Source: an uncultured SAR86 cluster bacterium (GTDB lineage Bacteria; Pseudomonadota; Gammaproteobacteria; Magnimaribacterales; D2472). Taken from it: 64,000 bases of DNA. The notes beneath the pieces were generated by a model. That model ran no database searches. It was not told the origin of the DNA and worked only from the letters and a program-made list of their open reading frames with translations. The translations under genes and the position numbers were made by a program. The DNA lies in NCBI GenBank assembly GCA_943788515.1, contig CALSQM010000001.1:128501-192500 (forward strand), read 5' to 3'. Of this stretch, positions 35,843 to 62,826 are shown piece by piece; position 1 is the first letter of the stretch; each line of letters starts with the position of its first letter.

Positions 35843-35919
35843 TGGTCGGGATGGCCGGATTTGAACCGACGACCACTACACCCCCAGTGTAGTGCGCTAC
35901 CAGGCTGCGCTACATCCCG
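35843..35919 (-). tRNA. tRNA-Pro (GGG)
   Basis: A 77-base cloverleaf on the minus strand. CGGGATG pairs with CATCCCG in the acceptor, the anticodon loop CTGGGGG gives GGG, and the T arm reads GGTTCAAATCC. The discriminator A and encoded CCA follow. It stands alone between the tandem-repeat gene and the broken esterase. Confidence 0.95.
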
Positions 35920-49571: not shown

Positions 49572-51137
49572 GTGACATATTTAGGCACCGCAAAAAAAGA
49601 AATTGATACTATATTGGTATTAGATTTTGGCTCTCAATACACCCAGCTTATTGCAAGAAGGATTAGAGAAAGTAATGTCTATTCTGAGATATTACCTTGG
49701 GATATCGAAGAAGAAAAAATTCGTTCTATAAATCCAAAAGGAATTATTTTATCAGGCGGACCTGATTCAGTTACTAATAGTTACACTCCAAGAATTCCAC
49801 AAATCGTATTTGATTTAGAGATTCCTATCTTAGGTATTTGTTATGGAATGCAAACCTTGGCTGAGCAAATGGGAGGTCAGGTAATATCTGCTGACCATAA
49901 AGAATTCGGTCATTCAGAGCTTCAAATAACTAAAGACTGTGTTTTATTCGATGGGCTTCAAAAAAACCTTAATGTATGGATGAGTCATGGCGATCAAGTC
50001 CAAGACTTACCTGATAATTTTGAGCTAGTTGCATCTACAGCTACCGCACCAGTTGCAGTTATGCAGCATGAGTCCAAGCCTATTTACGCATTACAGTTTC
50101 ACCCTGAAGTAACCCATACAGATGATGGGCAAAGCGTTTTAGATAATTACTTATTTAAAGTCTGTAATGCTCAAAAAGACTGGAAAATGGATAATTTAAT
50201 TGCTCAAAGAATTGAAGAAATCAAGAATCAAGTTCAAGACAATAAGGTTCTATTGGGACTTTCAGGAGGTGTAGATTCTTCAGTAACGGCAGCATTATTA
50301 CATCAAGCAATTGGAAATAAACTGGTTTGTGTTTTTGTAGATAATGGCCTTTTAAGAAAAGGTGAAGCCGATGAGGTGATGAATACCTTTAAAGAAAATA
50401 TGAGTCTCAATGTAATCAAGTCTGACAGTGAAGAAGTTTTCTTAAGACATTTAAAGGGAGTCACAGATCCTGAGCAAAAGAGAAAAATAATTGGAAGGAC
50501 TTTTATAGATGTATTTGATTCTGAAGCTACTAAAATAAAAAATATTCATTTTTTAGCTCAAGGTACTATTTACCCTGATGTCATTGAATCCTCAGGCTCT
50601 GAATCTAAAGAGGCAAGGGTCATTAAGTCTCATCATAATGTTGGTGGCTTGCCAGATGAAATGGAAATGGATTTAGTTGAGCCCTTAAGAGATCTATTTA
50701 AAGATGAGGTAAGAAGAATGGGAGTTGAGTTGGGGCTTTCTGCCGAAATGCTCAACAGGCATCCTTTCCCTGGCCCTGGTCTTGGAGTCAGAATACTTGG
50801 TGAGGTAACTAAAGAAAAAACCAGCATCTTAAAAGAAGCAGATCACATCTTTATTCAAGAATTAATCAAAGCAGATTTATACGATAAAGTGAGTCAGGCA
50901 TTTGCGGTGCATTTACCAATCAAGTCTGTTGGGGTTGTAGGTGATGAGCGAAGATATGCAGAAGTGATTGGCTTGAGAGCAGTTGAAACAGTGGACTTCA
51001 TGACTGCACGCTGGGCACATCTGCCATATGAATTCCTGGAACATGTCTCTAACAGAATCGTGAATGAAATAGAGGAAGTTAGTAGGGTGGTTTATGATAT
51101 TTCAAGCAAACCCCCAGCTACTATTGAGTGGGAATAG
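49572..51137 (+). CDS. guaA: GMP synthase (glutamine-hydrolysing)
   Basis: Converts XMP to GMP. The N-terminal class I amidotransferase has [23 protein letters not shown] with the nucleophile Cys, and FHPEVTHT with the His; the ATP pyrophosphatase domain has the P-loop [12 protein letters not shown]; the C-terminal dimerisation domain ends in [11 protein letters not shown]. 521 residues from the GTG start. The last 12 bases (51126-51137) recur at 52366-52377; the 3' end of guaA is a known insertion site for integrative elements. Confidence 0.96.
51126..51137 (+). repeat. Left copy of the 12-base guaA-end repeat (attL-like)
   Basis: GAGTGGGAATAG, coding for the final Glu-Trp-Glu-stop of GuaA. 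The right copy is at 52366-52377. Insertion here leaves guaA intact. Confidence 0.7.
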
Positions 51138-51188
51138 TCGTGTTCCTAGCAAACCCCCATTCTTAAGGGGTTTAGCATTCTAAAAACA

Positions 51189-51259
51189 GTTACAAACTTG
51201 TTACAAACTCCTCTGTAGACTCCATTCCTTCGTAGCAGTTACAAACTCTGTTACAAACT
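51189..51259. repeat. Left array of GTTACAAACT repeats
   Basis: Four exact copies at 51189-51198, 51200-51209, 51238-51247 and 51250-51259: two pairs with 11- and 12-base periods, about 50 bases apart. The rest of the spacer between guaA and 51338 holds a GC-rich hairpin (AAACCCC at 51151-51157 with GGGGTTT at 51167-51173) lacking a T-tract. Confidence 0.85.
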
Positions 51260-51337
51260 TACTCGACTATTGCGATTCATTAGTTGAATATTTGATTTAT
51301 TTTAGTAAGCTTGAGTTTACATTTGGGTACTTAATTT

Positions 51338-51592
51338 ATGAAAAGAAATCGAATTGATGAAATAACATATATTGGTGGCTTTATTGGCTGGCTGATTATC
51401 AATCCCAAACAGACAATAAATAATCGTGTCGAGGAAGCAAATAAGGCTGGTTGGACCGTCGTTAATATAATACCTGGCGGAGATCAAAATGCATTATTTA
51501 GATTATTAAGAACAATAATTCTTATACTTACGCTTGGTTTATTTACCTTTGGTGATGGAGTTTTTGTAATTTTTGAAAAGGATGGGGAGTGA
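51338..51592 (+). CDS. Small membrane protein in the guaA element
   Basis: 84 residues: a charged first half (MKRNRIDEITYIGGFIGWLI, NNRVEEANKAGWTVVNIIPG) and one or two membrane segments in the second half (LLRTIILILTLGLFTFGDGVFVIF). I do not recognise the family. Its stop codon overlaps the next gene's ATG by one base (TGATG), so the two are probably made together. Function unknown. Confidence 0.6.
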   Translation: MKRNRIDEITYIGGFIGWLIINPKQTINNRVEEANKAGWTVVNIIPGGDQNALFRLLRTIILILTLGLFTFGDGVFVIFEKDGE

Positions 51593-52149
51593 TGCCAGAA
51601 TCTTCTCAAATATATGAGCTATTCTGGCAAATAATTCCAACTTTAATATCTTTAGGTTTTATAGCCGGGATGTTCAAAGCATATAGCCTAAGAAATGAAA
51701 AGATGGGAGATATTCTTATAGCCTCCAATGTGTGGTTTTTTATTTTATTAAGGCTAGCGGGTATATTAACTTCAGATTTTGATGAATATGATGCTGATAT
51801 AGATACTGCTATAAAAATATCTTTAATTTTTTCTAATCCTTTTCTTTATATTAATTTATTTCTTTTTGGTGGTATTTTAGCTAAAACATATTTTTCAAAA
51901 TATTATGGAAATATAATTTTAAAAATTGGGATCGTAATTCTTTTTTTGGTTGCCTATGTTCTTTACCCTGTAAAGTCTTTTTATATGGCTAATCAGTTTG
52001 ATGATATGTCTCTTTTTGTATTTTATCGTATAACTTTTTATATAGGCGCTATTATAAATATATTGTTTTTTGTGCCGTACTTTAAATTAATATCAAATAC
52101 AAACATCAATGTTTCCATTACATCAAAAAATGACCCCAAAGATTGGTAG
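51592..52149 (+). CDS. Membrane protein in the guaA element
   Basis: 185 residues from the ATG at 51592; a GTG one codon earlier is also in frame, but GGGGAG is better placed for the ATG. Five hydrophobic segments alternate with short polar loops; an acidic loop (TSDFDEYDADIDTAI) lies after the second. The C-terminus (SITSKNDPKDW) is polar. No family recognised. Paired with the preceding small membrane protein, it is the only cargo of the putative element. Confidence 0.6.
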   Translation: MPESSQIYELFWQIIPTLISLGFIAGMFKAYSLRNEKMGDILIASNVWFFILLRLAGILTSDFDEYDADIDTAIKISLIFSNPFLYINLFLFGGILAKTYFSKYYGNIILKIGIVILFLVAYVLYPVKSFYMANQFDDMSLFVFYRITFYIGAIINILFFVPYFKLISNTNINVSITSKNDPKDW

Positions 52150-52209
52150 CATGTATCAAAGAAATTATGGCTTTAGATTTAAAAAACTTTGAGTAAATTT
52201 TTTTACAAC

Positions 52210-52309
52210 GTTTGTAACTCAGCATCTGCTAAAATGTTTATATTACAAGGGTTTTGAGAAGTTATGACAGTAAGAAAAATAGGCAAGAGTTACAAAGTAG
52301 TTACAAACT
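52210..52309. repeat. Right group of GTTACAAACT-type repeats
   Basis: An inverted copy GTTTGTAACT at 52210-52219, and direct copies GTTACAAAGT at 52289-52298 and GTTACAAACT at 52300-52309, 11 bases apart as in the left array. They lie just inside the right copy of the guaA-end repeat. Confidence 0.75.
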
Positions 52310-52377
52310 ACAGAATGCCCTTTGTAAACCATTGTTCTTACAAGGTTTTTTACAACCCTATCAGCGAGTGGGAATAG
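52264..52377 (+). other. 37-codon open frame ending in the duplicated guaA terminus
   Basis: ATG to TAG, product beginning MTVRKIGKSYKVV and ending ISEWE. The start resembles in a loose way the N-termini of phage-type integrases, and the last codons are the attachment core. It could be the truncated 5' end of an integrase gene cut at the attachment site, or chance. Not called as a gene. The rest of the 52150-52552 gap shows no coding sequence. Confidence 0.3.
52366..52377 (+). repeat. Right copy of the 12-base guaA-end repeat (attR-like)
   Basis: GAGTGGGAATAG, identical to the guaA terminus at 51126-51137; flanking bases differ on both sides, so the identity stops at 12 bases. Confidence 0.7.
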
Positions 52378-52552
52378 AGTAAAAACTATCTGCCTTGGTA
52401 TGGTTTCATATACTAGTATGATTAGCTTGCCTACTTGCTATTATCCACTCTATGTCTATATTGTGTAAGCATATACAAAATTAATACAAAACTTTTTTAA
52501 GCGCTTAATTATGATGCTTGAAAGATTATTAATCATCAAGAGAGGGGGCAAA

Positions 52553-53832
52553 ATGATCAGAAATCTAATGATAAATTTTTTAAAAACTGCCTCTAAGGTT
52601 AAAGAGAAAGAAGTTAAAGCTGTAATTTTTTCATTTTTATTTGTGGTCGTCTTGATGTCAGCCTATTACATTTTGCGACCAGTTCGCGATGCTATGGCTA
52701 GTGATTGGACAGATGCAGAGGTAAGTTGGCTGTGGACCCTAAATTTTTTTATTAGCACTGCAATCGTAGCGCTATTTGGGGTTATGGTTTCGAAGTTTCG
52801 TTTTCGATTATTGGTGCCAACTATGTACGGCATTTTTGCGATATCATTTATTATTTTTTATGCCCTAGGATCTGTTTTTGAGGATCGAACTGTAATTGAT
52901 AAATCATTTTATGTTTGGGTAAGCGTATTTAGCCTTTTTCATATTTCTGTTTTTTGGACCTTTATGTCAGAGCTATTCAGTAAAGAGCAATCAGGTAGGC
53001 TTATTCGGTATTATTGCTGTTGGTGCCAGTGTAGGCGGTCTGATTGGACCATCGATTACTGCATTTTTTTCAGTTTCCTTAGGTACTGATAACTTGATGC
53101 TTATCGCTAGCATGATGCTATTTATTCCAATTCCAATTATTTTTTATCTCCAATCATTGAAGGCAAAAGAATTAAATAATGAGGCGTTAGATATACCTAT
53201 TTCCAATCAATCAATTGGTGGAAATCCATCTTGCAGGCTTTAAAATGTTTTTCTCTAATCCATATCTATTATCGATTGGCTTATTTATTTTTTTATATAC
53301 TGGCATAAGCTCATTTGTTTATTTCGAATTAAAAAACTTATTGAGCGATTTTAGTCGCCCTGAACGTTCTGTTATTTGGGCTCAAATGGATCTTGCAGTA
53401 AATATTTTAGCAATCTCTACTGGGCTATTTGCAACAAGCCGCATTGTTACCAAATTTGGTATGCCTGTAACTATTGCCATGGTTCCAATAATGATTTGTA
53501 TCGGTCTGCTAGTATTGGCAATTTCGCCTTTATTGGGAGTAGTTGTGGTATTGCAGGTCATCCGCCGCGCTGGTAACTATGCTGTGACTCGTCCTGCTCG
53601 TGAAATGTTATTTACGCTTGTTAATCAAGAAACTCGTTTCAAAGCAAAACCTGTTATTGATATTGTTGCCTATCGAGGCGGCGATATGCTCACTGCTTGG
53701 TTGTTTACTGGACTTACGCAGGGCTTAGGATTAGGTTTGGCTGCAGTTGCTGCAGTTGGCGCAGGAATTGCTAGCTTATGGGCACTAGTTGGTATTTATC
53801 TTGGAAAATGGTTTGAGCGCAATGAACCTTAA
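52553..53832 (+). pseudogene. NTP/NDP-exchange-type (MFS-like) transporter with two frameshifts
   Basis: The start at 52553 follows a strong AGAGGGGG site. The first frame gives a multi-helix membrane protein with MSAYYILRPVRDAMASDW, a hallmark of ATP/ADP-translocase-like transporters of proteobacteria. Near 53005 the reading moves to another frame (GIIAVGASVGGLIGPSITAFF...) and near 53230 to a third (LAGFKMFFSNPYLLSIGLF ... to 53832). Each change equals one extra base: dropping one A near 53003 restores RLFGII, and dropping one T near 53230 restores NPLAGFKM. Neither lies in a long homopolymer. Arginine codons are mostly CGN, unlike the surrounding genes. Confidence 0.75.
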
Positions 53833-61407: not shown

Positions 61408-62709
61408 TTATGGCAAAAATATAAACTTAGCCAAAAAAATAACAGCCAAGAACCATGCGCCTGATGAAATATTTCTTATTTCACCCGAAGATATTTTCAT
61501 CACAACATACGCAATAAAACCAAGAGCTATACCGTTGGCAATAGAGAATGTTAAAGGAATCATAATTATCATAATAAGAGCAGGTAAAAGCTCACTTAAA
61601 TCTGACCAATCTAGCTTTTCCATTCCACTAAGCATCAATATGGCAACATAAATTAAAGCTCCAGACGTTGCGTATGCTGGAACAATTGCTGCAAGCGGAG
61701 AAAAGAAAATAGCAATTAAAAATAAAAATCCAACTACAACAGCAGTTAATCCAGTTCTTCCACCAGCCTCAACTCCTGCAGAACTTTCAACATAACTCGT
61801 AACTGGCGCACACCCAAAAAATGAACCAAAGACACTTGAGCTACTATCAGCTTTTAAGGCTTTATCTAGGTTTAATATCTCTCCAGATTCGTCAATTAAT
61901 TTAGCTCTTGATGCCACTCCCAAAAGAGTCCCTGCAGTATCAAATAAGTTTACAAAAAGAAAAGAGATTATGACGCTGATCATTGCAAGGTCTAAAGCCC
62001 CCAAAATATCTAACTTAATAAAAATCGGTGCGATACTTGGAGGATAGGCAATAACGCCCTGAAATTGAACTAAATCAAAAAAAACGCCCAATAATGTGAC
62101 GCTAAGCACACCAATTATAATAGCTCCTGAAACTTGTCTATTGGCTAAAACCGAAATAAGTAAAAAACCTACTGCTGAAAGCAAGGTTTCTATATTCATA
62201 AAATTACCTAAACTTACAAAAGTAGCATCATTGGCAACTATTATTCCACCGCTCTTTAGACCAATAAAGCCTATAAAAAGACCAACACCAGAACCCATAG
62301 CTATCCTTAAGTTCATGGGAATACTATCCAACATCCATCTTCTTAATGGGGTAACACTCATTATTACAAACAAGATACCTGCTAAAAATACAGCACCCAA
62401 TGCAACTTCCCATGTGTAGCCCATCTCGCCAACAACTGTATAAGTAAAAAAAGCATTTAAGCCCATGCCTGGAGCAAGGCCAACAGGCCAATTAGAGTAA
62501 ATTCCCATTGCAAAACACGCTAAAGCTGCTGCAAGACAAGTTCCAACAAAGCTAGCTCCATAATCCATACCACTCGAAGCCATCATCTGAGGATTAACAA
62601 AAATAATATATGCCATTGTGATAAAAGTGGTAAAACCAGCCAACAATTCTCTTTGAAAAGTAGTATTATTAGACTTTAATTTGAATGTATTTTCTAATAT
62701 TGAATTCAT
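61408..62709 (-). CDS. NCS2-family purine permease (AzgA-like)
   Basis: 433 residues from the ATG at 62709 (MNSILENTFKLKSNNTTFQRE), which matches the usual start of AzgA-type transporters better than the in-frame ATG at 62739. Signature segments: LLAGFTTFITMAYIIFVNPQMM, GLAPGMGLNAFFTYTVVG, FDTAGTLLGVASRAKLID and PVTSYVESSAGVEAGGRTGL. About 12 membrane spans. Such proteins take up adenine, guanine or hypoxanthine by proton symport. It is divergent from the TonB-dependent receptor. Confidence 0.93.
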   Translation of the reverse strand: MNSILENTFKLKSNNTTFQRELLAGFTTFITMAYIIFVNPQMMASSGMDYGASFVGTCLAAALACFAMGIYSNWPVGLAPGMGLNAFFTYTVVGEMGYTWEVALGAVFLAGILFVIMSVTPLRRWMLDSIPMNLRIAMGSGVGLFIGFIGLKSGGIIVANDATFVSLGNFMNIETLLSAVGFLLISVLANRQVSGAIIIGVLSVTLLGVFFDLVQFQGVIAYPPSIAPIFIKLDILGALDLAMISVIISFLFVNLFDTAGTLLGVASRAKLIDESGEILNLDKALKADSSSSVFGSFFGCAPVTSYVESSAGVEAGGRTGLTAVVVGFLFLIAIFFSPLAAIVPAYATSGALIYVAILMLSGMEKLDWSDLSELLPALIMIIMIPLTFSIANGIALGFIAYVVMKISSGEIRNISSGAWFLAVIFLAKFIFLP

Positions 62710-62826
62710 AGGTGTTTTAAGTATTGATAATGCACACAAACTATAAACTTATTAACAATAAAAAAACAATTTAATTTTTTATTTGGCATAGCGATTGCAT
62801 GTCAATTATTAATATTAACTTACAAT

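Follow-up and report, generated by a model that had tools for sequence, protein, structure and literature searches.

The 3′ end of guaA is listed among the target sites of integrative elements (PMC5704250) and is the integration target of Tn5801 (PMC4844618), in each case according to the part of the source that was available. The accessible part of the work on GIsul2 gives the core of that element at guaA as GAGTGGGA and reports that recombination there needs the GIsul2 integrase, which also moves the CR2-sul2 unit, a unit without an integrase of its own (PMC9376610); the word “arm” is absent from the main text of that paper, insofar as it was available. The core of the locus described here contains GAGTGGGA, the site of the GIsul2 integrase at guaA (PMC9376610).

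The locus lies in a 64,000-nucleotide stretch of a SAR86 genome, which was analyzed as a whole and is referred to as the window; positions without a contig or locus label are those of this stretch. The guaA ends of the SAR86 contigs L160 and L106 match those of genomes G089 (94.3%) and G071 (97.1%) over 210 bp; both genomes are of the same order as the window, in another family (f3, against f1 for the window), which places the window in the SAR86 order. SAR86 bacteria are abundant in the ocean and have small genomes, and no description of the guaA arrays of this lineage was found in the literature on SAR86 and guaA, on SAR86 genomic islands, or on integrase-less and helper-dependent elements (subscription journals were mostly uncovered). 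We regard the feature as a genuine cassette that probably carries recombinase arm sites and as a variant of helper-dependent, att-bounded elements, and consider that an outside enzyme probably moves such cassettes. A preliminary description had noticed the repeats; what it missed is that the unit is one cassette of many, that no integrase is found beside these cassettes in SAR86, and that their ends are conserved while their cargo is swapped.

Anatomy of the cassette behind guaA

The cassette (51126-52377) consists of a 1,240-bp unit between two copies of GAGTGGGAATAG, one in the 3′ end of guaA (51126) and one at 52366, with the following features:

49572..51137, plus strand: guaA (GMP synthase), the host target gene; an ORF whose last codons form the left core
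51126..51137, plus strand: left core GAGTGGGAATAG, overlapping the guaA stop codon; a direct repeat that also bounds the units of relatives
51151..51173, plus strand: left imperfect hairpin AAACCCC-N9-GGGGTTT; no function known
51189..51209, plus strand: putative left arm pair 1, two exact GTTACAAACT repeats 11 bp apart
51238..51259, plus strand: putative left arm pair 2, two exact GTTACAAACT repeats 12 bp apart
51338..51592, plus strand: cargo ORF 1, 84 aa, no Pfam family
51589..52149, plus strand: cargo ORF 2, 186 aa, ATG at 51592; hydrophobic (by eye), with only a sub-threshold Pfam match
52200..52219, no strand assigned: inverted-repeat site (GTTACAATGTTTGTAAC in genomes G005 and G011), containing the inverted arm copy at 52209-52218
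52264..52377, plus strand: possible 37-aa leader ORF across the right arms, ending in the core in the guaA frame (..EWE stop)
52289..52309, plus strand: putative right arm pair, GTTACAAAGT and GTTACAAACT, 11 bp apart
52326..52347, plus strand: right imperfect hairpin AAACCATTG-TTCTTA-CAAGGTTT; no function known
52366..52377, plus strand: right core GAGTGGGAATAG
52473..52493, plus strand: orphan pair ATACAAAATTAATACAAAACT, resembling the right arms of class C9

The five exact copies of GTTACAAACT reported earlier (51189, 51200, 51238, 51250, and 52300) and the one-mismatch copy at 52289 were all recovered, and the proposed pair spacing of 11 to 12 bases matches the measured values of 11 and 12 bp. 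An inverted copy is also present, but it occupies 52209-52218 of the minus strand (not 52210) and carries one mismatch (GTTACAAACG), so it is not exact. In the genome scanned (1,120,901 bases, or 1.12 Mb, in 18 contigs, 79% complete), GTTACAAACT occurs exactly five times, always on the same strand, and 5/5 copies lie at 51189-52309, which bears out the claim that the decamer is limited to the interval between the guaA-end repeats; scattered exact copies elsewhere, the outcome set beforehand as refuting an arm-site role, were not found in this genome. The total is unremarkable in itself, since the decamer with its letters reversed occurs four times genome-wide; that all five exact copies fall within 1.1 kb cannot be put down to chance. 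When one mismatch is tolerated, 11 sites of the window match (7 of them inside 51189-52309) against 5.7 expected from shuffles, and because 3 of 100 shuffles reached 11, it is the clustering of the decamer and not its count that constitutes the signal. The doublet with up to three mismatches matches three times in the genome (the two in the cassette and one 3-mismatch match on contig 18), and its reversed control matches once. The earlier reading of the repeats as recombinase arm sites gains support from their pairing at both ends of a core-bounded unit, with protein binding an inference, and from the recurrence of the same plan, with other repeat sequences, in many related cassettes and in a Prochlorococcus element that carries its own tyrosine integrase.

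On its plus strand, the window cassette contains two ORFs of ≥60 aa, neither of which matches an integrase, transfer, or replication family; an ORF resembling cargo ORF 1 forms the cargo of a unit from a different genus (G125_1). The left hairpin has a fold z of -2.15 (5/200 shuffles equally good) and the right one a fold z of -1.35 (18/200); both are conserved in class C1, and hairpins like the left one can be seen by eye at other unit ends. A role as terminators was rejected, as the terminator scan called none, and an Rfam search returned two sub-threshold matches only. For the right-end leader ORF, ten class representatives, which are partly dependent on one another, yield a combined p of about 3e-4; the frame is closed in C8, C1v, OM182_2, Porti_1, G125_1, and others, was dropped as a general feature, and remains a speculative lead only. 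Relative to a 17-base consensus, the right core of the window carries four mismatches, all upstream of the 12-base core, on account of which this copy may be immobile.

Downstream, the orphan pair at 52473..52493 is probably, by inference, what remains of a decayed neighboring cassette. Positions 52511-53832 hold one transporter-like gene in two ORFs with weak MFS and TLC matches, which appears to be a pseudogene or an assembly frameshift. The permease gene at 61408-62739, which we take to encode a purine permease, is the same as the one that follows the array of G005, and its position sets the variable stretch behind the window guaA at about 10 kb.

Arrays and paired repeats in relatives

A match to guaA was obtained in all 101 genomes searched (in some, only a paralogue of about 30% identity). 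Behind the guaA of SAR86 lie tandem units, mostly of 0.1-4 kb, each bounded by the core. The core (GAGTGGGAATAG, ≤1 mismatch) is present in 78/107 family genomes, against at most one match per genome and strand for its reversed control, and 30/107 have two or more matches on the same strand (counted from our table), including three, G044, G049, and G115, whose copies are on separate contigs or distant from one another. At the level of the order, a second core was detected in 10 of the 20 genomes sampled (of 40, picked mainly for long contigs). In G005, cores at 219, 713, 1697, 3108, and 4000 of L042 delimit four consecutive units ahead of the permease gene; G001 has three consecutive units behind guaA. 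Core-bounded units also occur beside guaA in OM182 MED-G28 (L133) and Prochlorococcus (L095/L337, L164). Further such units, from Porticoccaceae (L119) and one more Prochlorococcus (L162), lie in stretches that do not include guaA; L126 and L146 likewise have the core and no guaA in the stretch examined. The core is thus distributed across at least these taxa, the spread being a lower bound. Most of the genomes are incomplete, and some sets of loci were picked for near kinship, decamer matches, or two or more cores, so rates derived from them are biased. In all, we cut out 71 units from 46 loci, 62 of them from SAR86; one, G023_1 (12.7 kb), is doubtful.

G053 (contig C1, L339:10423, minus strand) has a second cassette array on a contig other than that of guaA, preceded by a stub that, once translated, closes with a sequence resembling the guaA tail (..YDASSKLMVTIEWE, by eye). 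In G006 (C2:288652-290603), a second copy of the last 136 guaA codons comes directly after guaA.

Right ends were searched for a 9-mer direct repeat (≤1 mismatch, spacing of 10-13) in the 64 units that were long enough (seven of the 71 were too short), with mononucleotide shuffles as the null. Such a pair is present in 48/64 units, versus a shuffle mean of 5.4 and maximum of 10; its spacing is 11 bp in 41/48 cases, and 34/48 pairs start 60-80 bp upstream of the core. Because members of the same class are related, these 48 are not independent, and a few are probably due to chance. In 25/48 units, the right-end repeat is found again at the left end of the same unit (versus 11.9 expected from the left ends of other units), whereas in the remaining 23/48 it was not found there; arm-type repeats on both sides of the core are thus a property of the window unit and also of these 25. 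Around other integrase hits, 14 loci were checked for paired repeats: two have two sets each, spaced 11-12 bp (L335:507-566 of SAR86 G133 and L334:2572-2707 of a Prochlorococcus genome), and two more have single pairs.

In units judged to be armed at both ends, the first ATG ORF (≥60 aa) begins at least 109 nt past the position of the guaA stop, at 144-146 nt in 9/21; among the other units, it begins at -1 to 12 nt in 12/39, of which four represent one shared cassette and three overlap the stop codon as ATGA. Translational coupling of cassette genes to guaA is inferred from this arrangement.

Exchanged cargo, movement, and competing readings

About nine sequence classes can be recognized by eye. 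Within a class, ends of about 90-180 bp are shared and the middles differ (blastn, 71 units), with some pairs sharing cargo too. The window unit and unit G005_2 are 90.7% identical over the left 161 bp and 92.5% over the right 174 bp, and the encoded proteins differ; likewise, the ends of the window unit are 90.9% and 90.6% identical to those in a SAR86 MAG (L186), with different cargo and a guaA of 71.5% identity. Ends themselves also vary: the left decamer copies of class C1 differ by whole 11- or 12-bp units (one is lacking in G011 and one in G005), classes C1 and C4 have a largely common right end with repeat copies differing in their last bases, and G040 has the same cargo as G030 with the right end of another class.

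The best evidence of movement is a 585-bp cassette that is 99.5-99.8% identical in G030, G032, and G091, representing three genera and two families, whereas the adjoining guaA ends are 71.2-73.5% identical; therefore, cassettes have moved. By eye, the identity starts and stops at the core on both sides. This cassette is without left arms and, being the best-evidenced moving unit, indicates that left arms are not strictly required or that movement may follow another route.

Three other readings, not mutually exclusive, need to be weighed against mobilization through arm sites. The first holds that the units are dead relics, decayed cis-mobilizable remnants of larger guaA islands with leftover arms and no present mobility. 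No integrase was found nearby, the window has an orphan arm pair at 52473, some cores are degenerate, and 44/71 units (8 of the 44 not from SAR86) have no single class motif at both ends, all of which this reading would accommodate, with the proviso that the motifs were drawn by eye from SAR86. Against it stand the near-identity of the 585-bp cassette across three genera and two families next to so divergent a guaA, and ends that are still 91% alike where guaA has diverged to 71.5%; we consider it unlikely, though not negligible. Alternatively, the decamers could be repressor operators or replication iterons of the cassette: direct repeats resemble iterons, and at the right end an inverted copy is followed by a start codon. 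Nevertheless, in several classes with differing cargo the pairs keep a fixed distance to the recombination core, the two window ORFs match no replication family, and a promoter scan listed nothing on the plus strand from the inverted copy to the right core; we hold this reading to be improbable. Weakest of the three, and given still less credence, is passive exchange by homologous recombination at guaA and the shared ends, with the repeats as relics or regulatory sites: ends can evidently be swapped, as in G040, yet in G030, G032, and G091 the identity, judged by eye, does not extend past the core in either direction, and the guaA sequences next to it, at about 72% identity, are too diverged for efficient homologous exchange.

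Helper search, proposed mechanism, and known systems

Behind guaA, 73 SAR86 loci were examined over stretches of at most about 15 kb, some under 3 kb, and none showed an integrase. The search used a home-made profile on 79 loci in total, and it matched only in Prochlorococcus L337, the protein of which had been used to train it; the profile also detects an untrained integrase-like frame beside guaA in viral contig L213. In L337, an element of 7.6 kb with TTTGTTGCG-type pairs at both ends encodes an integrase (L337:4135-5508, Prochlorococcus AG-402-M15; PF00589, E 7.6e-10) that starts 205 nt after the guaA stop, and it is followed by units of 1.7 and 0.9 kb without an integrase, the smaller with a matching pair at both ends and the larger with a pair at the left only (by eye). 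A tandem with an integrase element was seen only here. No helper with the SAR86 ends was found in phage and plasmid collections or in viral contigs, and a search of 50,697 phage records gave no match to the arrays of G005 and G054. With no integrase behind guaA and no helper in these collections, the SAR86 helper is hypothetical.

Several candidates were rejected. PF00589 matches occur in 103/107 family genomes, mostly one or two per genome; among the matches listed, they are mainly of about 300 aa and presumably represent XerC and XerD. Xer-driven movement was set aside on the assumption that the guaA core is not dif-like. A dedicated SAR86 integrase was not upheld, as the extra PF00589 loci read with their neighbors (nine: L312-L319 and L274; those of G010 and G112 and one of G048 are not included) show no guaA core, apart from 11 bases in L312 that match it loosely and lie about 5 kb away from the integrase. 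For the L095 integrase, the 107 family genomes yielded a single weak relative, and viral contigs none that was confirmed. A 670-aa DUF6538 protein, considered as a trans-acting recombinase, reads as an oxidoreductase fusion and not as an integrase.

DUF6538 was recorded in 124/203 order genomes. In unit G037_3, a DUF6538 protein without a catalytic domain begins 145 nt into the unit, which could hint at an origin of the units by decay of an ICE or IME, but the domain is also present elsewhere in SAR86 genomes. It fronts an integrase in L371, and in SAR86 (L390:1964-3967, L391:1876-3897, L392:1882-3888, L400, L401, L402:880-2307) it fronts what are, by eye, housekeeping enzymes: an oxidoreductase of ~670 aa in several genera and an IscS-like desulfurase in G086. 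A small protein of 146-154 aa that starts with DUF6538 is widespread (L289, L307, L394-L396, L398, L399, L403); it has a hydrophobic C terminus in the guaA cassette of G037 (L289:1748-2206) and lies next to guaA in G047 (L307:13693-14151).

The core pattern occurs in seven viral contigs, of which L213, L215, and L216 hold guaA and L218 holds only its tail. Integrase-like frames adjoin guaA in L213 and L215, without the window decamer, and both contigs are apparently prophages inserted at guaA. In L213 (1256-3930), the frame ends within about 70 bp of the guaA stop, on which basis guaA-targeting integrases probably travel on prophages. The exact window doublet was found in four viral contigs: L276-L278, which have no guaA core, and L279 (10099-10119), where it stands 37 bp before a 395-aa tyrosine-integrase-like gene, also without a guaA core. 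Patterns of other classes gave nothing in viral contigs, or phages without the core. In one viral contig (L404:1522-1545), 24 bases match the right-end hairpin of class C2, with TGTCAACAAA pairs 11 bp apart nearby (by eye) and no guaA core.

We have good, if incomplete, confidence that the repeats are recombinase arm sites of integrase-less guaA cassettes mobilized in trans. The mechanism rests on inference from the anatomy of the units, from their comparison, and from a single published precedent. The repeats, the cores, the tandem arrays, ends held in common by units whose cargo differs, cassettes that are nearly identical in distant genomes, and the Prochlorococcus integrase element are observed; protein binding, excision, and the identity of the SAR86 helper are inferred. 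Under this model, 51126-52377 would be a gene cassette that has integrated at the 3′ end of guaA and lacks an integrase of its own. Acting in trans, a phage-type tyrosine integrase would bind the paired decamers at both ends (as arm-type P and P′ sites) and exchange strands in the GAGTGGGA core; the cassette could then circularize and reinsert either at guaA or at the terminal core of another cassette, building tandem arrays. The mobile part would be the ends, and the cargo would be exchangeable. The class-specific repeat sequences suggest that every class is served by a cognate integrase of its own, while the core is common to all.

A wider reading, which we advance only tentatively and hold to be somewhat short of an even chance, joins three propositions: that a guaA-anchored, non-integron cassette system is common to marine bacteria; that interchangeable end modules and class-specific phage or satellite helper integrases operate on one universal core, with cassettes of one or a few genes thereby stacking behind guaA and crossing genera, orders, and possibly phyla; and that arm-less cassettes put their start codon on the guaA stop, such that the target gene drives expression. 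If true, a shared, helper-dependent cassette route would explain gene trade in the small genomes of SAR86, and the classes would form a natural series of integrase arm-site specificities on one fixed core. Defined ends and a defined core make these proposals directly testable.

The guaA cassettes are best read as being like cis-mobilizable elements and as integron-like in effect. The attC site of integrons is the folded RYYYAAC / GTTRRRY. The comparisons below rest on those parts of the cited descriptions that were available. Integron cassettes and CALINs (PMC11389934) resemble the guaA units as repeat-bounded cassette arrays mobilized in trans without an integrase, whereas the boundaries of SAR86 units fall in the guaA core. 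Tycheposons (PMC10872708) likewise carry cargo in marine bacteria with small genomes and are associated with tyrosine recombinases, but they are bordered by tRNA genes and measure 4-200 kb, unlike the SAR86 units, which are at guaA and mostly of 0.1-4 kb; the nearest tRNA in the window is at 35843, and the target is guaA, so a tRNA border is lacking. Phage satellites such as PICMIs (PMC10803314) are small, helper-dependent marine elements as well; for guaA cassettes, there is no packaging evidence. GIsul2 and CR2-sul2 share the GAGTGGGA core at the guaA 3′ end and offer an integrase-less subunit moved by the integrase of a larger element, although the GIsul2 helper is on the same 12-kb island (PMC9376610). 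CIMEs (PMC5704250) are att bounded, have no recombinase, and form tandem stacks where a target gene ends (3′); an adjacent helper is one point of difference, none having been found in SAR86. Flanking att sites are present as the cores at 51126 and 52366 and in the arrays (att function inferred), and the lack of integrase and transfer genes holds for the window ORFs and the 73 SAR86 loci. What further sets the SAR86 units apart from CIMEs is that they are gene-sized, have class-specific repeat pairs, combine shared ends with swapped cargo, and reside in small marine genomes.
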